27,890 nucleotides of DNA from a virus. Of the stretch, positions 5,537 to 27,691 are shown piece by piece; the first letter of the stretch is position 1, and the number at the start of each line of letters is the position of its first letter. Where the stretch lies: the IMG/VR virus record IMGVR_UViG_3300021401_000029, positions 1-27,890 of that record. One strand, written 5' to 3'. A model generated the notes under the pieces. The model made no database searches. It was not told the origin of the DNA and saw only the letters and a program-made list of their open reading frames with translations. The translations under genes were made by a program, and so were the position numbers.

Positions 5537-6436
5537 GTGAACACCTTACCCGAAGAGCATGTACTATATTGCCGCAGGATTGCGCGAGGCGACGTGTTGC
5601 TATGTACAGCCATAACACGCGAGCACAAGCGCCGCCGGCCGCAAGACAAATTATATTTCCGTACGGACTATCCTGAAATCTTTAAGAATAATCCAGATGT
5701 AGTGAGTGCGGGCCCAATGGAACGAGGCCCTTCCGCTCCTTTTGTAAATGTCCGCAATTTGGATTTTATAATGTACGAGCAGATGAATGGCTGCCATCTT
5801 ATTGACAGCTTTGCTTCAGGTGCTCATATGGCAGTAGGTGAATGCCCCAAAACTATAAGCCTACATCCCTCTCAAGAAGATAGAGACTGGGCAGCTAAAG
5901 AACTACCCCCAGACTGCCACAAGAATGGATTTGTAGTGATTGCTCCGGGACCGGGTTTGTGGGAAGGGCGTAATTGGGAGGAGCAAAAATGGTGGATGTT
6001 GATAAACTACATCCATAGGGAGTATGGGCTGCCTGTGGTAGTGACAGGAGTAGTGGAAGGCAAATCGCGCCACTATATACTCCCTGTGCCCGATCGACAT
6101 GACTTTAGAGGCAGAACTTGCACATTCTTGCATTTAGCTGCTATTATTGGTGCTGCGAAACTCTTCATCGGTATTGACAGCTTTCCGTGCCACGTAGCGG
6201 GCGCGATGCGCGTTCCTCGCGTGGTTCTATTTGGGATCACGAGTCCTGAGTGCATTCTTTGTGACGCACCTAACACGGTAGCGATAAAAAGTGATGCCGC
6301 ACACCCTTTCACCGGAATCCGCCATCGCATCAAAGGGGGCATGGCGACAATTGATTTAGGATGGCCTGCAAAGAATCCGATGTCTACTATTTCCGTGTCG
6401 CAAGTTACAGACGCTATTCCAAAATTACTAAAATGA
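5537..6436 (+). CDS. Glycosyltransferase family 9-like (heptosyltransferase fold)
   Basis: 299 residues from GTG 5537. The C-terminal half carries the GT9 (GT-B fold) pattern: a nucleotide-sugar-proximal FVVIAPGPGLWEGRNW region near residues 132-147, and FIGIDSFPCHVAGAMRVP followed by RVVLFGITSPE near 212-240. This matches the 'D-[ST]-x-P-x-H-x-A-x-A-x-x-x-P-x-V-x-LFG-x-T-x-P' signature of ADP-heptose:LPS heptosyltransferases. Such enzymes move a sugar from an ADP- or similar donor to LPS core or another acceptor in the cytoplasm. Here it lies inside the head operon, so either cell-surface modification or virion glycosylation is possible. It overlaps the next gene by ATGA (6433-6436). The donor and acceptor cannot be read from the sequence. 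Confidence 0.82.
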   Translation: MNTLPEEHVLYCRRIARGDVLLCTAITREHKRRRPQDKLYFRTDYPEIFKNNPDVVSAGPMERGPSAPFVNVRNLDFIMYEQMNGCHLIDSFASGAHMAVGECPKTISLHPSQEDRDWAAKELPPDCHKNGFVVIAPGPGLWEGRNWEEQKWWMLINYIHREYGLPVVVTGVVEGKSRHYILPVPDRHDFRGRTCTFLHLAAIIGAAKLFIGIDSFPCHVAGAMRVPRVVLFGITSPECILCDAPNTVAIKSDAAHPFTGIRHRIKGGMATIDLGWPAKNPMSTISVSQVTDAIPKLLK

Positions 6437-12385: not shown

Positions 12386-12844
12386 ATGAGACAGAAACAA
12401 GCGTTTAAAGTTAAGACAGGAATCCACTATCACCGCGAACCCGGTCAGGAAAAAACAGTGCCCTTCGGCAAGGGGCAGGAGGCGGGAGACACTATTGTCA
12501 CAACCCAGGATTTGATCGGCCGTTTCCCGGAGAAGTTCGAGCTTATGCATGAGGCTCGCATCCCGCAAGCCGCAGAAGCTACCGTCGCAGCCGTTCCGCC
12601 CGCACAACCCGCCGCAGCGCCTCAAGATTCACTGCGTGTAGGGGGCGAGCAAGAGGAAGCCCCTAACGGCACGCACCCGGTTGATGCCACCAAGGACTTC
12701 CCTAAGGCGAAGAAGCTGGGCTTTGTGGTCTTTGAGCGTGCCGGGAAATATTACGTCGCGGACAAAGACAATCCCGAAAAGTTCGCTAACAAGAAAGGCT
12801 TGGCCAAGGCTGAAGTTGAGGCTTTTGCCATTGACCAAGCGTGA
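12386..12844 (+). CDS. Hypothetical head protein (152 aa)
   Basis: Lies directly after the capsid terminator and before the connector genes, a position often held by small head or head-tail proteins. The first 58 residues (VKTGIHYHREPGQEKTVPFG, then TTQDLIGRFPEKFEL) form a small beta-like domain. A Pro/Ala/Gln linker follows at about 59-80, then a C-terminal region with KLGFVVFERAGKYYVADKD and a helix KKGLAKAEVEAFAID. No family identified. The stop overlaps the GTG of the next gene (12841-12844). The SD-less A/C leader is described separately. Confidence 0.65.
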   Translation: MRQKQAFKVKTGIHYHREPGQEKTVPFGKGQEAGDTIVTTQDLIGRFPEKFELMHEARIPQAAEATVAAVPPAQPAAAPQDSLRVGGEQEEAPNGTHPVDATKDFPKAKKLGFVVFERAGKYYVADKDNPEKFANKKGLAKAEVEAFAIDQA

Positions 12845-13509
12845 AGTGGGAAATCACAAAAGAGTGGGAGGGACAAGACGCCTTCATTTTAGGCGGCGGT
12901 CCCTCCCTGCGGGGATTCGATTGGTCGAAGTTTGAAGGCAGAAACACCATAGGGTGCAATTCCGCCTATATCCTCGGACCTCGAGTTGCTAAGCTGTGTC
13001 TATTTAGCGACAACGACTGGTTTGAGAAGAACGAAGACGGATTGATGGCTTACAGCTTTGCTGGAGGCCGCTGCGTCACCCATTGTGAATATGTGCCACG
13101 AGATTTGCATTGGGTTTCTTGCCTCGAGCGCCAAATGAAGTTCTTCTTGGATGATGGAACGATCTATCATGGCTACGGGGGCAACAGCGGTTCCGCTGCT
13201 CTGCATCTTGCATTACTGATGGGGGCGCGACGTGTATTCCTCTTTGGCTTCGACGGAGCACTAGGACAACACGGAGAGAGCAACTGGCATGACCGTGCGA
13301 TTGAATCTCCTAACGCTAAAGTTTACATCAAGTTTAACACTGCATGGGATGTTATTTCCACGGAGTACCGAAAAGTATTTCCTGGTACGGAAATCTACAA
13401 CTGCAATCCCAATTCGGCTATCACCCATTTCATCAAAACGGAGCCGGATATGGCGTTGGAGGGGTGGTGTGGCGGATTTACCACCTCAAAAAAGGAGGCT
13501 GTTGCCTAA
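12841..13509 (+). CDS. DUF115/sialyltransferase-like protein, probable glycan enzyme
   Basis: 222 residues from GTG 12841 (GTGA overlap). The N-terminus FILGGGPSLRGFDWSKFEG (about residues 15-33) is followed by TIGCNSAYILG. Further on, YGGNSGSAALHLAL (about 111-124) and GARRVFLFGFDGALG (about 127-141) give the Rossmann-like order shared by MptE/DUF115 proteins and GT42 sialyltransferases ('G.GPSL...D......v.r.N', later 'N/T-SG...a...A..lG...iyl.G.D'). These families use CMP-sugars or related substrates; the exact substrate is not visible. A glycan enzyme among connector genes is unusual and suggests virion or receptor modification. It ends in a TAATG junction with the next gene. Confidence 0.65.
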   Translation: MKWEITKEWEGQDAFILGGGPSLRGFDWSKFEGRNTIGCNSAYILGPRVAKLCLFSDNDWFEKNEDGLMAYSFAGGRCVTHCEYVPRDLHWVSCLERQMKFFLDDGTIYHGYGGNSGSAALHLALLMGARRVFLFGFDGALGQHGESNWHDRAIESPNAKVYIKFNTAWDVISTEYRKVFPGTEIYNCNPNSAITHFIKTEPDMALEGWCGGFTTSKKEAVA

Positions 13510-15462: not shown

Positions 15463-16902
15463 ATGAAAAAACTACTATATTTATTTGTATTCCTTTTCGT
15501 TTTGCTGCCTTTGACTAGAGCAGCGGACAGCGCCTATGATTTAATCCTGCTCCAACAGAACTCAGCAAATACGGGGAAGGTGCAAGTCAACATAACCCCC
15601 GTGGCTAGTTCGCTGGTGGGGTTTAATACTTCCAAGCTTCCCGTAAACATTGCACTAGGAACAAACCTTTCCCTTTCAGGCACAACGCTGAACGCGACAG
15701 GAGGAGGGACTCCCGCAGGAAGTTCTGGTGATATACAAACGAACAGCTCAGGGGCATTCGGCCACATCACTCCAGGTGCAAACATAGTAACATTCCTAAC
15801 CTCCGCTCTTCCCACCACTCTAGCAGGGTACGGGATTACTAATGGTGTGGCAAATACTGTTACTGTTAACGGACATGCTTTGTCCTCTAACGTGACAGTA
15901 ACCAATGCGGATCTTGGCGCAGTACCCACTACTACTACAGTCAATGGACATGCATTAAGCAGCAACGTGACTGTCACCAATTCGGACCTAGGCGCTGTAC
16001 CTACAACGACCACAGTTAATGGTCATGCCTTAAGTTCAAACGTAACCGTTACAACAGGGGATTTAGGTTTAGGCACAATGGCAACTCAGTCAGCTTCTAA
16101 TGTGTTGATTTCTGGTGGTGTGATCTATAATCCACCAACCACAGCATCTGCTGGTGGGACAGTTGTGCTTTCCAATGGTAGTGACGTTTATATAAATCCA
16201 TACACGTCCAACACCTCTTTTACGCTTCCCGGATCACCCTCAGCAGGTTATTACTTTAGGATTCACTTTGAAGCTTGTGATGGAGCGTCGATCGCCACGT
16301 TCTCAGGAACAGTTAATCGTAACGGATTCAGTACAAGTGGAACAGTGTACACACCAGCACCTGCCGGTAATCACGTGGTCTATGGTAGGTATATAAACGG
16401 TGCATGGTACGAGTCGGACGACTTTTCCAGCAACACTGTAGCCAATGGAGGAACTGGTGCGACTACGTTTACTATTCATGGCGTTTTGTTAGGACAAACG
16501 ACATCCCCTCTCACGGCGACTGCTGCTGGTGCAGCAGATACAATCCTAACAGGCATGGGAGCATCTGATCCAACATTCCAATATCCTCATATTCACGTCA
16601 ACTCACAGTCGGCGGCCTATACGACGTTGCTTACCGACCAAGGCGACATCATCTACCATCCCAGTGCAGACACGACGGCGAGGACGTGGACGATCGACAG
16701 CAACGCGAACGTCGCGGCACCTATTGGCACTTCACTCTCGTTCTACAACGATACGAGCGCGGGCACGGTGACGATTGCCATCACGTCAGACACGCTGGTG
16801 CTGTCTCCTGCGGGCACGACGGGATCGGTCACACTACTGGCCGGCCACACCGCCACGGCGGTCAAGGTCGCGAGCACGCGCTGGTTCATCTCAATGAATT
16901 GA
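15463..16902 (+). CDS. Tail-fibre-like protein with Sec signal peptide
   Basis: 479 residues from ATG 15463, chosen because it opens a clear Sec signal (KK, then a LYLFVFLFVLLPL core, TRA cleavage near residue 20); a TTG/ATG start upstream at 15433 would put ten residues before it. The body is Thr/Ser/Gly/Val-rich and beta-like, with three near-identical 25-residue repeats (15862 on) built around [14 protein letters not shown]. About residues 225-310 are a distinct beta module. The last 100 residues (TTARTWTIDSNANVAAPIG and onward) form a fibre end-domain with clearly higher GC. It resembles adhesive fibres, but the signal peptide is unusual for a virion protein. It belongs with the LamG and beta-helix proteins downstream. 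Confidence 0.75.
   Translation: MKKLLYLFVFLFVLLPLTRAADSAYDLILLQQNSANTGKVQVNITPVASSLVGFNTSKLPVNIALGTNLSLSGTTLNATGGGTPAGSSGDIQTNSSGAFGHITPGANIVTFLTSALPTTLAGYGITNGVANTVTVNGHALSSNVTVTNADLGAVPTTTTVNGHALSSNVTVTNSDLGAVPTTTTVNGHALSSNVTVTTGDLGLGTMATQSASNVLISGGVIYNPPTTASAGGTVVLSNGSDVYINPYTSNTSFTLPGSPSAGYYFRIHFEACDGASIATFSGTVNRNGFSTSGTVYTPAPAGNHVVYGRYINGAWYESDDFSSNTVANGGTGATTFTIHGVLLGQTTSPLTATAAGAADTILTGMGASDPTFQYPHIHVNSQSAAYTTLLTDQGDIIYHPSADTTARTWTIDSNANVAAPIGTSLSFYNDTSAGTVTIAITSDTLVLSPAGTTGSVTLLAGHTATAVKVASTRWFISMN
15862..16068 (+). repeat. Tandem 75-base coding repeat (two full units and a partial third)
   Basis: Units begin at 15862, 15937 and 16012. The protein repeat is almost identical ([14 protein letters not shown], then a short D-L-G-A-V-P-T-T-T linker), but codons differ strongly: ALSS is GCT TTG TCC TCT, GCA TTA AGC AGC and GCC TTA AGT TCA in the three copies. 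Confidence 0.85.
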
Positions 16903-16906
16903 TGCC

Positions 16907-17695
16907 ATGAAAAAACTGATATTTTTCGCAGGTCTATTTTTCGCTTCTCTGGCCTTTGGTGGAGCGGCGCAGCAATGCTTGCTGACGGCGTATACAACGG
17001 CTGCATCCAACAATTTCAAGACGAACTTGGTGGCTTTTTACAACATGGACGATTCGGCGGGGTCTGGCGCAACCGACATATTCGCTGCGCACAATATGAC
17101 ACTGAATGGAACGATTGGTTCGTCCGCTGGCATAGTAACAAATTGTAGAACGAGCAACGGAGCTCCGGGTAATAATTTTACATTGGCTAGCGTAGGCTCA
17201 TTCAGCCCCGGTTCCAATAGTTTCACAGTAGCTTTTTGGACTAAAGCTGCCAGCTTGACACAAGCTGCCTATCCTACTTTTGCAGAAAAGGGAGGCAATC
17301 CTACTTCTATCGAATGGCTTATTTATTGGGATGCCCCGTCTTCTAAGGCAGTGTTGCAGGTAAGTGCAGATGGAACAACCAGTACATCCGTTACAGCTTC
17401 CACAGCATTTACAGATACGACCACTTTTCATTTGATTGTGGCCGAGTGGGACGGATCCAATATAAAGATCAGTTTTGATGGCGGCGCTTTCGCGACTACG
17501 GCATGGAGCACGACATTATTCTCCGGAATCGGTAACTTTGAAGTGTTTCAGGATGCTACTGGGACTGCATCCTACAATGGCTCAATTGGCCAAGTAGGGT
17601 ACTGGGTTGGTCGGGCATTGCCATTAACCGGCACTACCAGTATCGCGACTCTCTACAACGGCGGATCAGGATACGCTTATACAAATTTCCAATGA
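16907..17695 (+). CDS. LamG/concanavalin-like lectin protein with Sec signal peptide
   Basis: 262 residues, starting with a clear Sec signal (MKKLIFFAGLFFASLAFGGAA). The mature part has the LamG jelly-roll signs: VAFYNMDDSAGSG near the start, FTVAFWTKAAS at mid length, FHLIVAEWDGSNIKISFDG (about residues 178-196), and GQVGYWVGRALP near the end. Such domains bind sugars or glycoproteins and are common in secreted proteins and phage fibres. It starts four bases after the fibre gene and overlaps the beta-helix gene by ATGA, so the three probably act together at the cell surface or in the virion. No catalytic residues can be assigned. Confidence 0.8.
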   Translation: MKKLIFFAGLFFASLAFGGAAQQCLLTAYTTAASNNFKTNLVAFYNMDDSAGSGATDIFAAHNMTLNGTIGSSAGIVTNCRTSNGAPGNNFTLASVGSFSPGSNSFTVAFWTKAASLTQAAYPTFAEKGGNPTSIEWLIYWDAPSSKAVLQVSADGTTSTSVTASTAFTDTTTFHLIVAEWDGSNIKISFDGGAFATTAWSTTLFSGIGNFEVFQDATGTASYNGSIGQVGYWVGRALPLTGTTSIATLYNGGSGYAYTNFQ

Positions 17696-19236
17696 GGTAT
17701 TTTATTTTAAGCCTTATTTTGACGGTGCGCCTAACCGCTGCCACGTACTACGTCACCCAATCCGGTGCTGGGTCTGGCAATGGCAGCTCCATAGGCAATG
17801 CCGCGAGCATCGCAACCCTCAATGGACATATGCCAGCTGCCGGTGATACAGTGAGCCTGAATGGGGCGATCACCAGTGGCATCACGGTCAATGGTAGCGG
17901 AGCATCCGGCAACCCGATTACCTACCTCTTCGCATCAGGTGCGTCCATGAGCACGACGGTTTGGAACTCCGCTTTCACTCTCGCAAATAATAACTACATC
18001 ACGATTGATGGTGGTGCGACCGGTACTATCGGAGGGCCTGGGGCAACCGGGACGACCAACGGGTACATCCAAAACACGGCTAATGGGACGGGGTTGGCCA
18101 ATACCGCAGTTACGAATGCAATTGCTGCAACCGACTGCAACAACCTGACGATCCAAGGGTTGGTAATCCGAAACCTATACGTCAGAAATTCTTCGACTGA
18201 TGAAAGCGCAGGTGCTTCCAGCAGCAGCGGTATTTATGTGCTAAACAGTTCAGGAAACCTGACCAACCTAAAGGTCACAAATTGCGTGTTCCATGACATG
18301 AATACTGGTGTCGGCGCCGCCTACCGAGGGAGCGCGTGCATGACTTGGGAAGTGTCTTACTGCACGGCTTATAATTGCAACTGGGGAGCTGCGTTCGGGG
18401 ATGCAGGAACCTCTGGCCAGAACCTCACCGGAGCAACCATCCACCATAACCTCTTCTATAATTTCTCGAATTGGGATGATTCGGTATCAAACCTTTACCA
18501 TCACAACGGATTTTATGGATACGCCGAATCTGGCGGAGGCATCACCGGGGCGACGATCTACGATAACCAGATAGGGCCCGGTGCTGGAACCAATGCTACT
18601 GCTCATATCTTCCTTTCAGGCAATCTTCTCGGAACTTTCACGATCTATAACAACATATTTTTAGCGGATTCAACCGGAAATCCTAACAACGGTAACATAT
18701 ATTTTGACAACAAGTATGGTACAGGCACGACTTTGAATTACTACAATAACACCTCAATTGGTTATAATTCTTCAGGAATTGGCGTAGATATAGATGCTCT
18801 TAGCGGAACCTCGGGGACGGTGTTACTAAAGAATAATCTATTCTCTGGGGATGGGACGGCCATCGCGTTTTTTCACGTTAACCTGTACACGGCCACGGCG
18901 GATTACAATCTGGGCTATAACCTGAACTCCGGGCAGGCGTATTCGTGGTCGTCCAGCGGTGGTTCAAACCCGCAGACGTTTGCGCAGTGGCAGGCGGACG
19001 GGTTCGATACACATGGAACGAACGGGAACCCGAATCTCAACGGTAGTTATGTCCCGCAGCCGACCAGTTCGGCAATCTCCGCAGGCGCGAATCTGTCCTC
19101 CTATTTCACGACCGATTACGCTGGCGTCACGCGCCCGGCTTCCACGGCATGGGACATTGGGGCGTATGAGTACGGTGCTCCTGTCGGGGCCACTATTTTG
19201 AATTGCTTCAAGTTCGGAAACATAGGAAACCAATAA
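17692..19236 (+). CDS. Right-handed beta-helix protein with Sec signal, candidate depolymerase
   Basis: 514 residues, ATGA-coupled to the LamG gene. A short signal peptide (RYFILSLILTV, ending RLTAA) is followed by a long right-handed beta-helix. It shows an initial YYVTQSGAGSGNGSS, repeated N-rich rungs (NNYITIDGG, NLTIQGLVIRN, LKVTNCVFHDM, ATIHHNLFYNF, ATIYDNQIG, FTIYNNIF), and a C-terminal GVTRPASTAWDIGAYEY of the 'choice-of-anchor Q' type. Many such proteins are pectate-lyase-like or bind or cleave polysaccharides. No catalytic set is identified, so lyase, hydrolase or pure adhesin are all possible. A depolymerase acting on host glycan is the leading guess. The signal peptide is again unusual for a tail protein. 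Confidence 0.8.
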   Translation: MRYFILSLILTVRLTAATYYVTQSGAGSGNGSSIGNAASIATLNGHMPAAGDTVSLNGAITSGITVNGSGASGNPITYLFASGASMSTTVWNSAFTLANNNYITIDGGATGTIGGPGATGTTNGYIQNTANGTGLANTAVTNAIAATDCNNLTIQGLVIRNLYVRNSSTDESAGASSSSGIYVLNSSGNLTNLKVTNCVFHDMNTGVGAAYRGSACMTWEVSYCTAYNCNWGAAFGDAGTSGQNLTGATIHHNLFYNFSNWDDSVSNLYHHNGFYGYAESGGGITGATIYDNQIGPGAGTNATAHIFLSGNLLGTFTIYNNIFLADSTGNPNNGNIYFDNKYGTGTTLNYYNNTSIGYNSSGIGVDIDALSGTSGTVLLKNNLFSGDGTAIAFFHVNLYTATADYNLGYNLNSGQAYSWSSSGGSNPQTFAQWQADGFDTHGTNGNPNLNGSYVPQPTSSAISAGANLSSYFTTDYAGVTRPASTAWDIGAYEYGAPVGATILNCFKFGNIGNQ

Positions 19237-24416: not shown

Positions 24417-26153
24417 ATGAAGATACTGAAATATATATTCTTGCTTGTGCTGATTACTTCCACAGCAAAAGCACAAGTGGCGGTAAAAGCGGACGGAGTT
24501 ACTGGAGCGCTTGCTGTGCCTACTACCTTTTTTAGTGGGAATAGTGCGGCTATTACGAGTGCTGTAGGTAGTTCTATTCTACTAAAATCAAATAATCTAT
24601 CTGATGTCCCTACACCTGCAACGGCTCGTACTAACTTAGGACTAGTTATAGGTACGAATGTGGAAGCATGGTCGGCAAACTTGGACACGTGGTCGGGCAA
24701 GTCGCCTCCTTCTGGAACGGTTATCGGATCCTCTGACACTCAAACATTGTCCAATAAATCGTTCACCGCTCCCGCGCTCGGCACCCCTGCATCAGGCACA
24801 CTCACGAACTGTACCGGATATGTATTTTCAAATCTAGCCAGCCTTCCTACCACTCTTTCAGGGTATGGGATTACGAATGGAGTAGCAAACACTGTGACAG
24901 TAAATGGACATGCTCTATCTAGTAACGTAACTGTCACGGCAAGCGATGTCAGTTTAGGTTCAGTAACAAACGATGTACAAACTAAAGCGGCTATCCTGAC
25001 GAACACAGCCCCCGCAAGTGGGCAAATTCCTGTAGGCAATGCAGGAGGAACAGCCTACGCGCCTGCTTCTGTAAGTGGAGACGGCACTCTAGCTTCTACT
25101 GGTGCGATGATAGTTACCAAGACAAATGGCGCACCTTTTGCCACTAGTGCAACAACGGACACAACTAATGCATCCAATATATCAAGTGGAACTTTAGCGG
25201 TATCCCGAGGCGGCACGAATATAGCGTCATACACAAAAGGGGATATACCCATTGCGAGTGCCTCTACTACCTTAACTAAGTTAGGAGTGGGGACCGATAC
25301 TTACGTCCTTACAGCAGACTCTACACAGACAACGGGAGTCAAATGGGCAGCTCCTTCAGGAGGCGGAGGAAGCGGAACAGTAACCTCAGTAGCCGCCTCC
25401 GTTCCAGCATTCCTTAGCATTAGTGGAAGTCCTGTGACAACGTCTGGTACCTTAGCCATTAGTTTATCTGGTACGGCATTGCCTGTAGCTAATGGAGGTA
25501 CTGGGGCCACTACCTCTACAGGATCAGGTGCCGCGGTATTAGCTACCAGTCCGTCATTAGTGACTCCTGCACTTGGAACTCCTTCATCGGGTACGCTTAC
25601 TAATTGTACCGGATTGCCCGCATCGGGCACCACCGGATTTGCCACTAGTGCAACAACGGACACAACTAATGCATCCAATATATCAAGTGGAACTTTAGCG
25701 GTAGGACAACTGCCTGGAAATCTATTTTCGTCCTCCAATTTAGTGGAGGCCATAGCCTCCGGCACTGTTTATCCGATGACCAGTAGCTATGCTGCTATAA
25801 CTTTCGGTACTACTAGTCCTGTTATTACAATTCCCGCAGCGGGCACATGGGTCATTCAATATGAAATTAGAATGGACACTAGCTCTCCTGTGACAACTGC
25901 GCAAGAAACCATAGCACAGTTTAAGATGGCTAGAACCAATAATTCTTTTTCTTACCTACCTATGGTTCTTGGAGTATGTCCCATTACCGAGGCTACCTCT
26001 AAAAGCAGAGACGGACATTGTACGGGATTCTGCGTTTATACCACCGCTAATACCAATGATTCCATTACTATTTTCACTGCCGTTGCAAACCCCACTTCAG
26101 GTGGGTACTACATTGTCGAGGAGGCTTCAATATTTGCCTACCGAATTTACTAA
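24417..26153 (+). CDS. Second tail-fibre-like protein with Sec signal peptide
   Basis: 578 residues from ATG 24417, five bases after the previous stop; the in-frame ATG at 24393 would overlap it and put eight residues before the signal. The signal peptide ([18 protein letters not shown], cut before QVAV near residue 19) is plain. The body is Thr/Ser/Gly/Ala-rich and beta-like, sharing the [20 protein letters not shown] segment with the fibre at 15463. It contains two exact copies of a 66-base coding segment and a '[19 protein letters not shown]' stretch found in many phage fibres. The last 130 residues form a compact, Cys-containing head-like domain. It may be a second receptor-binding fibre, again unusually with a signal peptide. 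Confidence 0.78.
25137..25202 (+). repeat. Exact 66-base direct repeat, copy 1
   Basis: Identical to 25638-25703 inside the same fibre gene. It begins TTTGCCACTAGTGC and ends CTTTAGCGGTA. The copies are read in the same frame and encode [20 protein letters not shown], then AV. Unlike the other repeats in this window, this pair shows no synonymous divergence, which suggests recent duplication or gene conversion. Confidence 0.9.
25638..25703 (+). repeat. Exact 66-base direct repeat, copy 2
   Basis: Second copy of the segment at 25137-25202, 501 bases downstream, in the same frame of the same gene. Slippage or recombination between the copies would remove exactly 167 codons and keep the frame. 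Confidence 0.9.
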
Positions 26154-26563
26154 GGATCCACGGAAACGATCTGAACAAATCTTCCAATATAATTTTGCTT
26201 CGTTACAAGACATCCATCTTCCCTTAAATTATGATCACCTTTGCAAATCCATCCTTCGTTAGGAAGCCCTGCGTGATAAACTGCGCGGTGCAGAACATAC
26301 GCATTTATAGACTCATTCCAATAACTGATAATCATGCCTCGTTTTATCTGAGCGAATGGAAGATACTCAATTTGAACTTTGGCCGTTTTTGGCAATGTTG
26401 GGAGCATAGAATCCCCCTCGGTTTCAAACACATCTGTATCGTATTTTACTTGCCCTTGTTTCTCCCCCACTACCAAAGCATGGAAATTACTGGGAGGAAG
26501 CGGTGCAAGGCATCCAGATAAAATTACTAGAACAAGCAATAGAAAAACCGGTAGAAGCTTCAT
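26150..26563 (-). CDS. Lipoprotein with S26B-type signal-peptidase motifs
   Basis: The only minus-strand gene. Start taken at 26563, where ATG opens [17 protein letters not shown], a lipoprotein signal with lipobox L-S-G-C (Cys18); a longer frame to 26659 adds 32 residues before it and is rejected. The 137 residues carry, in order, GDSMLPTL (Ser52), LHRAV (His92) and [10 protein letters not shown] (Asp110, Asp116). This is the box B / box D / box E order of the Ser-His(-Asp) signal peptidases of the ER/archaeal/S26B type. The usual bacterial enzyme has Lys instead of His. Nearby genes encode four Sec-signalled adhesins, so cleavage of those or of host preproteins is a natural guess. It overlaps the fibre stop by four bases in convergent order. 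It could instead be an inactive, surface-exposed moron. Confidence 0.72.
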
Positions 26564-26569
26564 AGTCCT

Positions 26570-26600
26570 ATTATCGTAATTCCAACATGGATCGTTGCAA
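26570..26600 (-). promoter_or_regulatory. Possible promoter for the minus-strand lipoprotein gene
   Basis: On the minus strand TTGCAA (26595-26600) is followed after 16 bases by TACGAT (26573-26578), or after 19 by GATAAT (26570-26575), each with four or five matches to -35/-10. It lies just before the start at 26563, in the divergent 75-base gap. Matches are weak and sigma-70 rules may not hold in this host. Confidence 0.3.
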
Positions 26601-26638
26601 GTTTTATTTTCCACGTAATCATCATCAAAAACATCGCC

Positions 26639-27691
26639 ATGAATAAGTCCCTGCTGCAATTGCTATTTGTCCTACTTCTAACTGGATGCAGTATTTTCCA
26701 TAAACCTATCGGATTACAAGCGCCCATAGTCCAAGCAGTTCCTTTACAACGTGCTACGTCTGCAGTAGACACTTCGATACAATCCTCGGATGAAGCATCG
26801 AAGCAAGTCAAAGCCATAGAAGCCTTGAAAGAGAGTAAAGCGGTATCGGCAATTGCGGACGCGAAAACAAACAACTCCTTAAATCCTAAAGGCAATCCCA
26901 AGACGATAGTGGATATGGATCTATCTCTTGCTTTAGGTATATTTGCAGACGTACAAGCGGATCCCGAGATGGCGTTAGCTTTATCGCAAAACAACGCTTT
27001 AGTGCAGCAAGGTAAGGCAGAAGCTGCATTAGCAGCTAATAACACGCTAGCGAGCAACGTTGCGGCATTAAACACGGCGCTAGCAGCCCAGAAAGCAGCA
27101 GAAGCTGCTGAAATAGCCAAAAGAGACCAAGCACTCAAGGATCAGCAGATTCAGCAGGATGCTTTTATCCAGAAAACAAACGAGAATCAAACCGCTGCGG
27201 ATAAAGCCCTAGCGGATGAGAAAGCGAAGGAATCTCAGATTGAGCAGGACAAGCAAGCCCTGTACCTAAACATTGCTGGTGGGGTGTTCCTTTTGATCTT
27301 TGGACTGGGTGTGGGATTTGGACAGCTTGCTGGTTTGAAAATAGTTTACCCTTTTGGAATACTGTCCTTAATGTGTTTAGGGCTGGCACAGATCATCACA
27401 CAGTGGTGGTTTAAATACGGGGTGTTAGGCGCAACCTTGCTTTTGCTCATTGTAGTGGGAGTTTGGTTCTATCAACACTACCAAAAAGGAAACCTATTGC
27501 AAGCTACACAAGCTCAAGCTACAAAATTACAAACAACCCTATCCCAAGTGGTGCCAGTTATCGACAACGCCTACAACAATGCGGACACTGCCACGCAAAA
27601 GGTTTTAGACGATACCGTCTTCAATAATCTCTCAACTAGTATGACTAAGGATGCAAAATCTGTTATCCATCTTGTCCGGGCTGCGCTTTAA
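26639..27691 (+). CDS. Lipoprotein with coiled coil and three TM segments, spanin-like architecture
   Basis: 350 residues. The N-terminus MNKSLLQLLFVLLLTGC ends in a lipobox (L-T-G-C, Cys17), so it should be lipidated. Residues 50-205 are Ala/Lys/Gln/Glu-rich and helical (AALNTALAAQKAAEAAE and similar), with the character of a long coiled coil or rod. Three hydrophobic helices follow at about 210-229, 235-257 and 260-281, and then a 70-residue soluble helical tail. Lipid anchor plus periplasmic rod plus inner-membrane segments is the layout of a unimolecular spanin, but those have one TM segment, so this would be an unusual version. An envelope or injection protein is an alternative. No SD is visible. 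Confidence 0.6.
   Translation: MNKSLLQLLFVLLLTGCSIFHKPIGLQAPIVQAVPLQRATSAVDTSIQSSDEASKQVKAIEALKESKAVSAIADAKTNNSLNPKGNPKTIVDMDLSLALGIFADVQADPEMALALSQNNALVQQGKAEAALAANNTLASNVAALNTALAAQKAAEAAEIAKRDQALKDQQIQQDAFIQKTNENQTAADKALADEKAKESQIEQDKQALYLNIAGGVFLLIFGLGVGFGQLAGLKIVYPFGILSLMCLGLAQIITQWWFKYGVLGATLLLLIVVGVWFYQHYQKGNLLQATQAQATKLQTTLSQVVPVIDNAYNNADTATQKVLDDTVFNNLSTSMTKDAKSVIHLVRAAL

Follow-up and report, generated by a model that had tools for sequence, protein, structure and literature searches.

A predicted lipid-anchored S26B-like peptidase of a tailed phage belongs to an exported branch common in Verrucomicrobiota

A short minus-strand gene of a tailed phage (26150–26563) is predicted to encode an exported, lipid-anchored Ser-His-Asp peptidase of the S26B type, and by its sequence this phage-borne protein belongs to an exported branch of S26B-like proteins that is common in Verrucomicrobiota. 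On balance we think it probable that this is an accessory phage gene, taken from that exported branch, for a lipid-anchored serine peptidase that cleaves an exported polypeptide. The stretch of DNA that was analysed, hereafter the window, comprises 27,890 nucleotides of IMG/VR record IMGVR_UViG_3300021401_000029, and its portal, Mu F-like head protein, encapsulin/HK97-like capsid and tape measure genes identify it as part of a tailed phage.

Results

The gene and its product

The 26150–26563 gene is real: the minus-strand frame encodes 137 amino acids, and the plus strand, read in register, contains stops. All of the sequence boxes are found where an earlier, sequence-only reading had placed them. 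The protein opens with a putative lipoprotein signal peptide (residues 1–18, encoded at 26510–26563, minus strand; residues 4–17 are helical in the structural model), followed by a linker and then by a domain carrying GDSMLPT, LHR and KGDHNLRED. GDSMLPT holds the predicted nucleophile Ser52 (26408–26410), LHR the predicted general base His92 (26288–26290), and KGDHNLRED both Asp110 (26234–26236) and Asp116 (26216–26218), all on the minus strand. Judging from the sequence, a lipobox, L15-S16-G17-C18, takes the place of an N-terminal transmembrane helix, which supports the lipoprotein anchor proposed earlier.

Family and fold

NCBIfam model TIGR02228 (archaeal/ER-type signal peptidase I) matches residues 46–132 with an E-value of 3.6e-9, much better than chance would give; at 36.7 bits the score lies below the curated cut-off of 51.85, but no other family comes close, and the same model matches 50/50 relatives in alignment A4. 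Pfam and PHROGs returned zero matches for the peptidase protein itself. A profile built from 15 relatives matched human SEC11C and SEC11A at 7e-15, and Ser56, His96, Asp116 and Asp122 of SEC11A (in its own numbering in the printed alignment) align opposite Ser52, His92, Asp110 and Asp116 of the phage protein. The Ser-His-Asp triad of SEC11A and an S56A mutant have been described (PMC13385932), and ER-type enzymes have Ser-His where the bacterial type has Ser-Lys in its place (PMC10269814).

The AlphaFold2 model forms a block with pLDDT of 91–98 over residues 51–137, with values below 50 confined to the linker (24–40). When the model was searched with Foldseek, the top PDB matches were SEC11C and SEC11A (7p2q, 7p2p), followed by SpsB, LepB and LexA-type domains; the match to SEC11C is modest (E 2e-3, TM 0.52) and the other E-values are 2e-3 and above, partly because the model includes the signal peptide and linker. 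The modelled catalytic domain thus matches SEC11 first, and a fold other than that of signal peptidases, which would have refuted the sequence-only reading, was not seen. The family model, the SEC11A/C profile, the conserved histidine and the Foldseek ranking agree with one another, and the assignment of the phage protein to the S26B (Ser-His) class, as first suggested from its box order, is supported by both sequence and model. A bacterial signal peptidase I (Ser-Lys, S26A) was considered and rejected, the general-base Lys being absent and a His standing there in 94/94 homologues.

Searches for close copies were unproductive: with the protein as tblastn query, GenBank phages and plasmids gave no match, and when viral and genome contigs were scanned for exact peptides, the same virus alone was recovered.

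Conservation of the catalytic residues

Conservation was assessed in an alignment of 94 distinct homologues that had not been selected for Ser or His. A serine stands at position 52 in 91/92 and a histidine at position 92 in 94/94, so that both residues named by the sequence-only reading hold, and Asp116 is kept in 93/94, with Glu in the remaining one. Asp110 is present in 53/94. At loci found with a DNA pattern both aspartates are fixed by the pattern itself, while in the much larger Verrucomicrobiota set they are not. Since Asp116 is near-invariant and Asp110 is not, the triad is most simply Ser52-His92-Asp116; the conserved acid, earlier sought in either aspartate, would be the second of the two, with Asp110 a non-conserved position in the family. 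A conserved triad is by itself no proof of proteolysis, and we infer peptidase activity as a prediction from the sequence.

The gene is accessory and lacks a recognisable promoter

Within the window the peptidase gene is the sole gene-like minus-strand ORF without an overlapping plausible plus-strand gene. It is carried as well by a 4,444-bp contig of the same virus that overlaps the window with 100% identity. Past the right end of the window, on overlapping sequence of the same virus, lie SbcC/SbcD-type genes that are on the minus strand too; the earlier description of the peptidase gene as the only antisense one is therefore true of the window but not of the phage.

In the sibling phage L006, DNA identity is 88–90% at both flanks and the gene is absent at the site, the tail-fibre stop (2438) being followed by the lipoprotein ATG at 2469; it is absent from a second sibling, L228, as well. 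This presence and absence at one site marks the gene as accessory (moron-type), in keeping with the sequence-only reading. The same reading had also given the gene a possible promoter of its own and a possible role in the lysogen, and neither suggestion found support. A consensus scan found no minus-strand sigma70-like promoter or terminator-like site, including in the 75 bp that separate its start from that of the divergent lipoprotein gene (26564–26638), and no match to Phage_integrase (tyrosine integrase) was found in the window plus overlapping contig, about 40 kb; action in a lysogen is therefore unsupported. Because the SbcC/SbcD-type genes further right share its strand, the peptidase gene may be expressed early.

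Neighbouring genes and candidate substrates

To the left, convergent with the peptidase gene and overlapping its end by 4 nt, lies a gene for a tail-fibre-like protein (24417–26153, plus strand) with a Sec signal peptide that is conserved in sibling L006. An identical 66-bp repeat occurs twice within this gene (25137–25202 and 25638–25703). To the right, the plus-strand gene at 26639–27691 encodes a 350-residue lipoprotein with three transmembrane segments, a charged middle part and, from profile matches, a weak Rz-like spanin match; it may be a spanin-like lysis protein.

The fibre-like protein is one of four large fibre/lectin-like proteins that have Sec signal peptides at their natural starts (15463–16902, 16907–17695, 17692–19236 and 24417–26153, plus strand), and these four exported proteins are candidate substrates of the peptidase. 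Together with the neighbour at 26639 they make up 5/19 large genes with a signal peptide or lipoprotein signal, against 25/834 at other viral loci (p 3e-4), signal peptides having been called by a simple hydrophobicity rule, not SignalP, and the control loci not being randomly chosen. Among the four, one matches a tail-protein PHROG and one Laminin_G_3; such a set of signal-peptide proteins is unusual for a tailed phage. Elsewhere, the structural block contains glycosyltransferase family 9-like (5537–6436) and sialyltransferase-like (12841–13509) genes, both on the plus strand.

Exported relatives in Verrucomicrobiota

A profile search found S26B-like matches in 57/289 Verrucomicrobiota genomes. 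Among 81 Verrucomicrobiota rows a C-terminal transmembrane segment is present in one, an N-terminal hydrophobic segment in 54 (in 35 of them as the only such feature) and a lipobox in 19, the last corresponding to 18/80 proteins, whereas 21/30 Bacillota relatives have a C-terminal transmembrane segment and one has a doubtful lipobox; this contrast is biased to the exported form because the search profile held two Verrucomicrobiota rows. The lipoprotein topology, which had been regarded as uncommon, thus recurs on Verrucomicrobiota chromosomes, and it does so on the phage contig L231 as well.

As the layout of the phage protein is that of these abundant exported proteins, the gene was most likely acquired from the exported S26B-like branch rather than evolved in phage. 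In a tree on 88 columns the phage proteins stand beside the exported Verrucomicrobiota group, but at unresolved forks that do not single out a donor. No prophage relatives of the phage capsid protein were found in the 289 Verrucomicrobiota genomes, so a Verrucomicrobiota host is unproven.

Some of the chromosomal genes form divergent pairs of exported S26B-like genes (G171:C40:263682-264702, similarly in G180, G141, G135 and G236), in which one member is often a lipoprotein; many genes of these pairs have lost the equivalent of Asp110 and kept Ser, His and Asp116. No context common to four Verrucomicrobiota copies was found among their neighbours.

Relatives in other phages

Using a DNA pattern for the C-terminal GDxN-D-VT-NYxG region, we located small exported S26B-like proteins on at least seven other viral contigs. 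Those on L127/L129 and L229 have a signal peptide, those on L128, L230, L232 and L233 an N-terminal anchor, and the one on L231 is a lipoprotein (FVSC). On L233 (3001–7254) the order is tail fibre, S26B-like protein, lipoprotein with transmembrane segments and small protein with a C-terminal transmembrane segment, which is the order of the window although the contig is otherwise different, and the S26B-like–lipoprotein part of it recurs in L232/L234. The neighbouring lipoproteins of the window and L233 have no detectable homology, and the small transmembrane proteins align weakly. The relatives on L129, L229 and L231 sit among replication, glycosyltransferase or small early genes.

Foldseek also matches annotated phage signal peptidases, from Bacillus phage BCD7 (J9PV64) and an uncultured Caudovirales phage (A0A6J5PXA0), so it is not new for a phage to encode an S26 protein; a literature search for phage-encoded signal peptidases found no relevant description.

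Discussion

The mechanism that we favour begins with export by Sec, after which the peptidase would be lipidated at Cys18 and cut by host signal peptidase II. The compact beta domain would then be kept near the periplasmic face of a membrane by a disordered linker about 20 residues long. There Ser52 would attack the peptide bond while His92 acts as the base and Asp116 orients the His. Where an ordinary signal peptidase has an N-terminal membrane helix, the lipid would serve instead, and there is no counterpart of the usual C-terminal helix. The target would most likely be an exported polypeptide near the membrane, either a signal-peptide protein of the phage or an envelope protein of the host.

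Other roles have to be weighed against this one. A peptidase dedicated to the fibre/lectin-like proteins that the phage itself exports, removing their signal peptides or trimming them after export, would account for the signal-peptide enrichment and for the fibre gene that abuts the peptidase gene. We nevertheless consider this role unlikely: sibling L006 retains the signal-peptide fibre without a peptidase at the site, where host signal peptidase I is presumably enough, the other S26B-like-bearing phages have no such enrichment in the stretches examined, and the enrichment was measured against loci chosen non-randomly. The more general proposal is that an extracytoplasmic, lipid-anchored ER-type signal peptidase is encoded by some phages themselves and processes a set of their own Sec-exported fibre/lectin-like proteins, which the infected cell would display or shed; this strikes us as very unlikely. 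The recurring gene order on L233 and, in part, L232/L234, as well as the weak spanin match of the right-hand neighbour, would place the peptidase in a lysis region, cutting or activating an envelope or lysis protein. This is hard to square with the lack of detectable likeness between the neighbouring lipoproteins, the weak alignment of the small transmembrane proteins, the different surroundings on L129, L229 and L231 and, in the window itself, an orientation antisense to the lysis-like genes, and we hold it to be quite improbable.

T5 Llp is one of the phage lipoproteins that block infection, and a small exported lipoprotein encoded by an accessory gene in a variable interval, in its own orientation, could likewise change the host surface by cutting or obstructing an envelope protein of the host, in superinfection exclusion or receptor removal. 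Blocking alone would not need a conserved triad, however, and with no integrase found in about 40 kb we doubt that this is the role of the gene. Finally, the gene could be a catalytically idle passenger, captured from a host and unused as a peptidase. The exported Verrucomicrobiota paralogues are without known function, and the base composition of the gene (GC 41%, GC3 35%) departs from the 50% GC of the window, but the adjoining fibre gene has an equally low GC3 (36%), the triad is intact, the catalytic domain is confidently modelled and phage-borne relatives occur on several independent contigs, which makes an idle gene the least likely of these possibilities. An accessory, exported peptidase with an exported target is the reading that we retain.

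Signal peptidases are normally held in the membrane by helices. With the S26B enzymes (SEC11A/C, archaeal signal peptidase, Bacillus SipW; TIGR02228) the phage protein shares the order and spacing of Ser, His and Asp, the catalytic fold and, by prediction, an extracytoplasmic active site, but it is apparently lipid-anchored, has neither an N-terminal nor a C-terminal transmembrane helix and scores below the family cut-off. The exported Verrucomicrobiota proteins (e.g. L131, L141, L152, L160) are likewise small and exported, without a C-terminal transmembrane segment, in some cases with lipoboxes, and with the triad conserved; they differ in being chromosomal, about 20–32% identical to the phage protein, which has a shorter N-terminal part and keeps the Asp110 that many of them have lost. 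The annotated phage proteins J9PV64 and A0A6J5PXA0 share the S26 fold in a phage, but neither, compared by label only, is called a lipoprotein. An exported, lipid-anchored, single-domain Ser-His-Asp form that is common in one bacterial phylum and repeatedly phage-borne would point to a so far uncharacterised branch of extracytoplasmic peptidases, one that it pays phages to carry. With about 90 residues the soluble domain is small, and its expression and assay should be easy, so that function is directly testable.

The S24 phage repressors (CI/LexA type) have a related catalytic fold and a GDSM-type box, but differ in their Ser-Lys dyad, DNA-binding N-terminus and cytoplasmic location. They are the commonest GDSM[LF]PT proteins in viral contigs, and a DNA pattern for GDSM[LF]PT, tried as a finder there, returned almost only CI-type repressors of this family.
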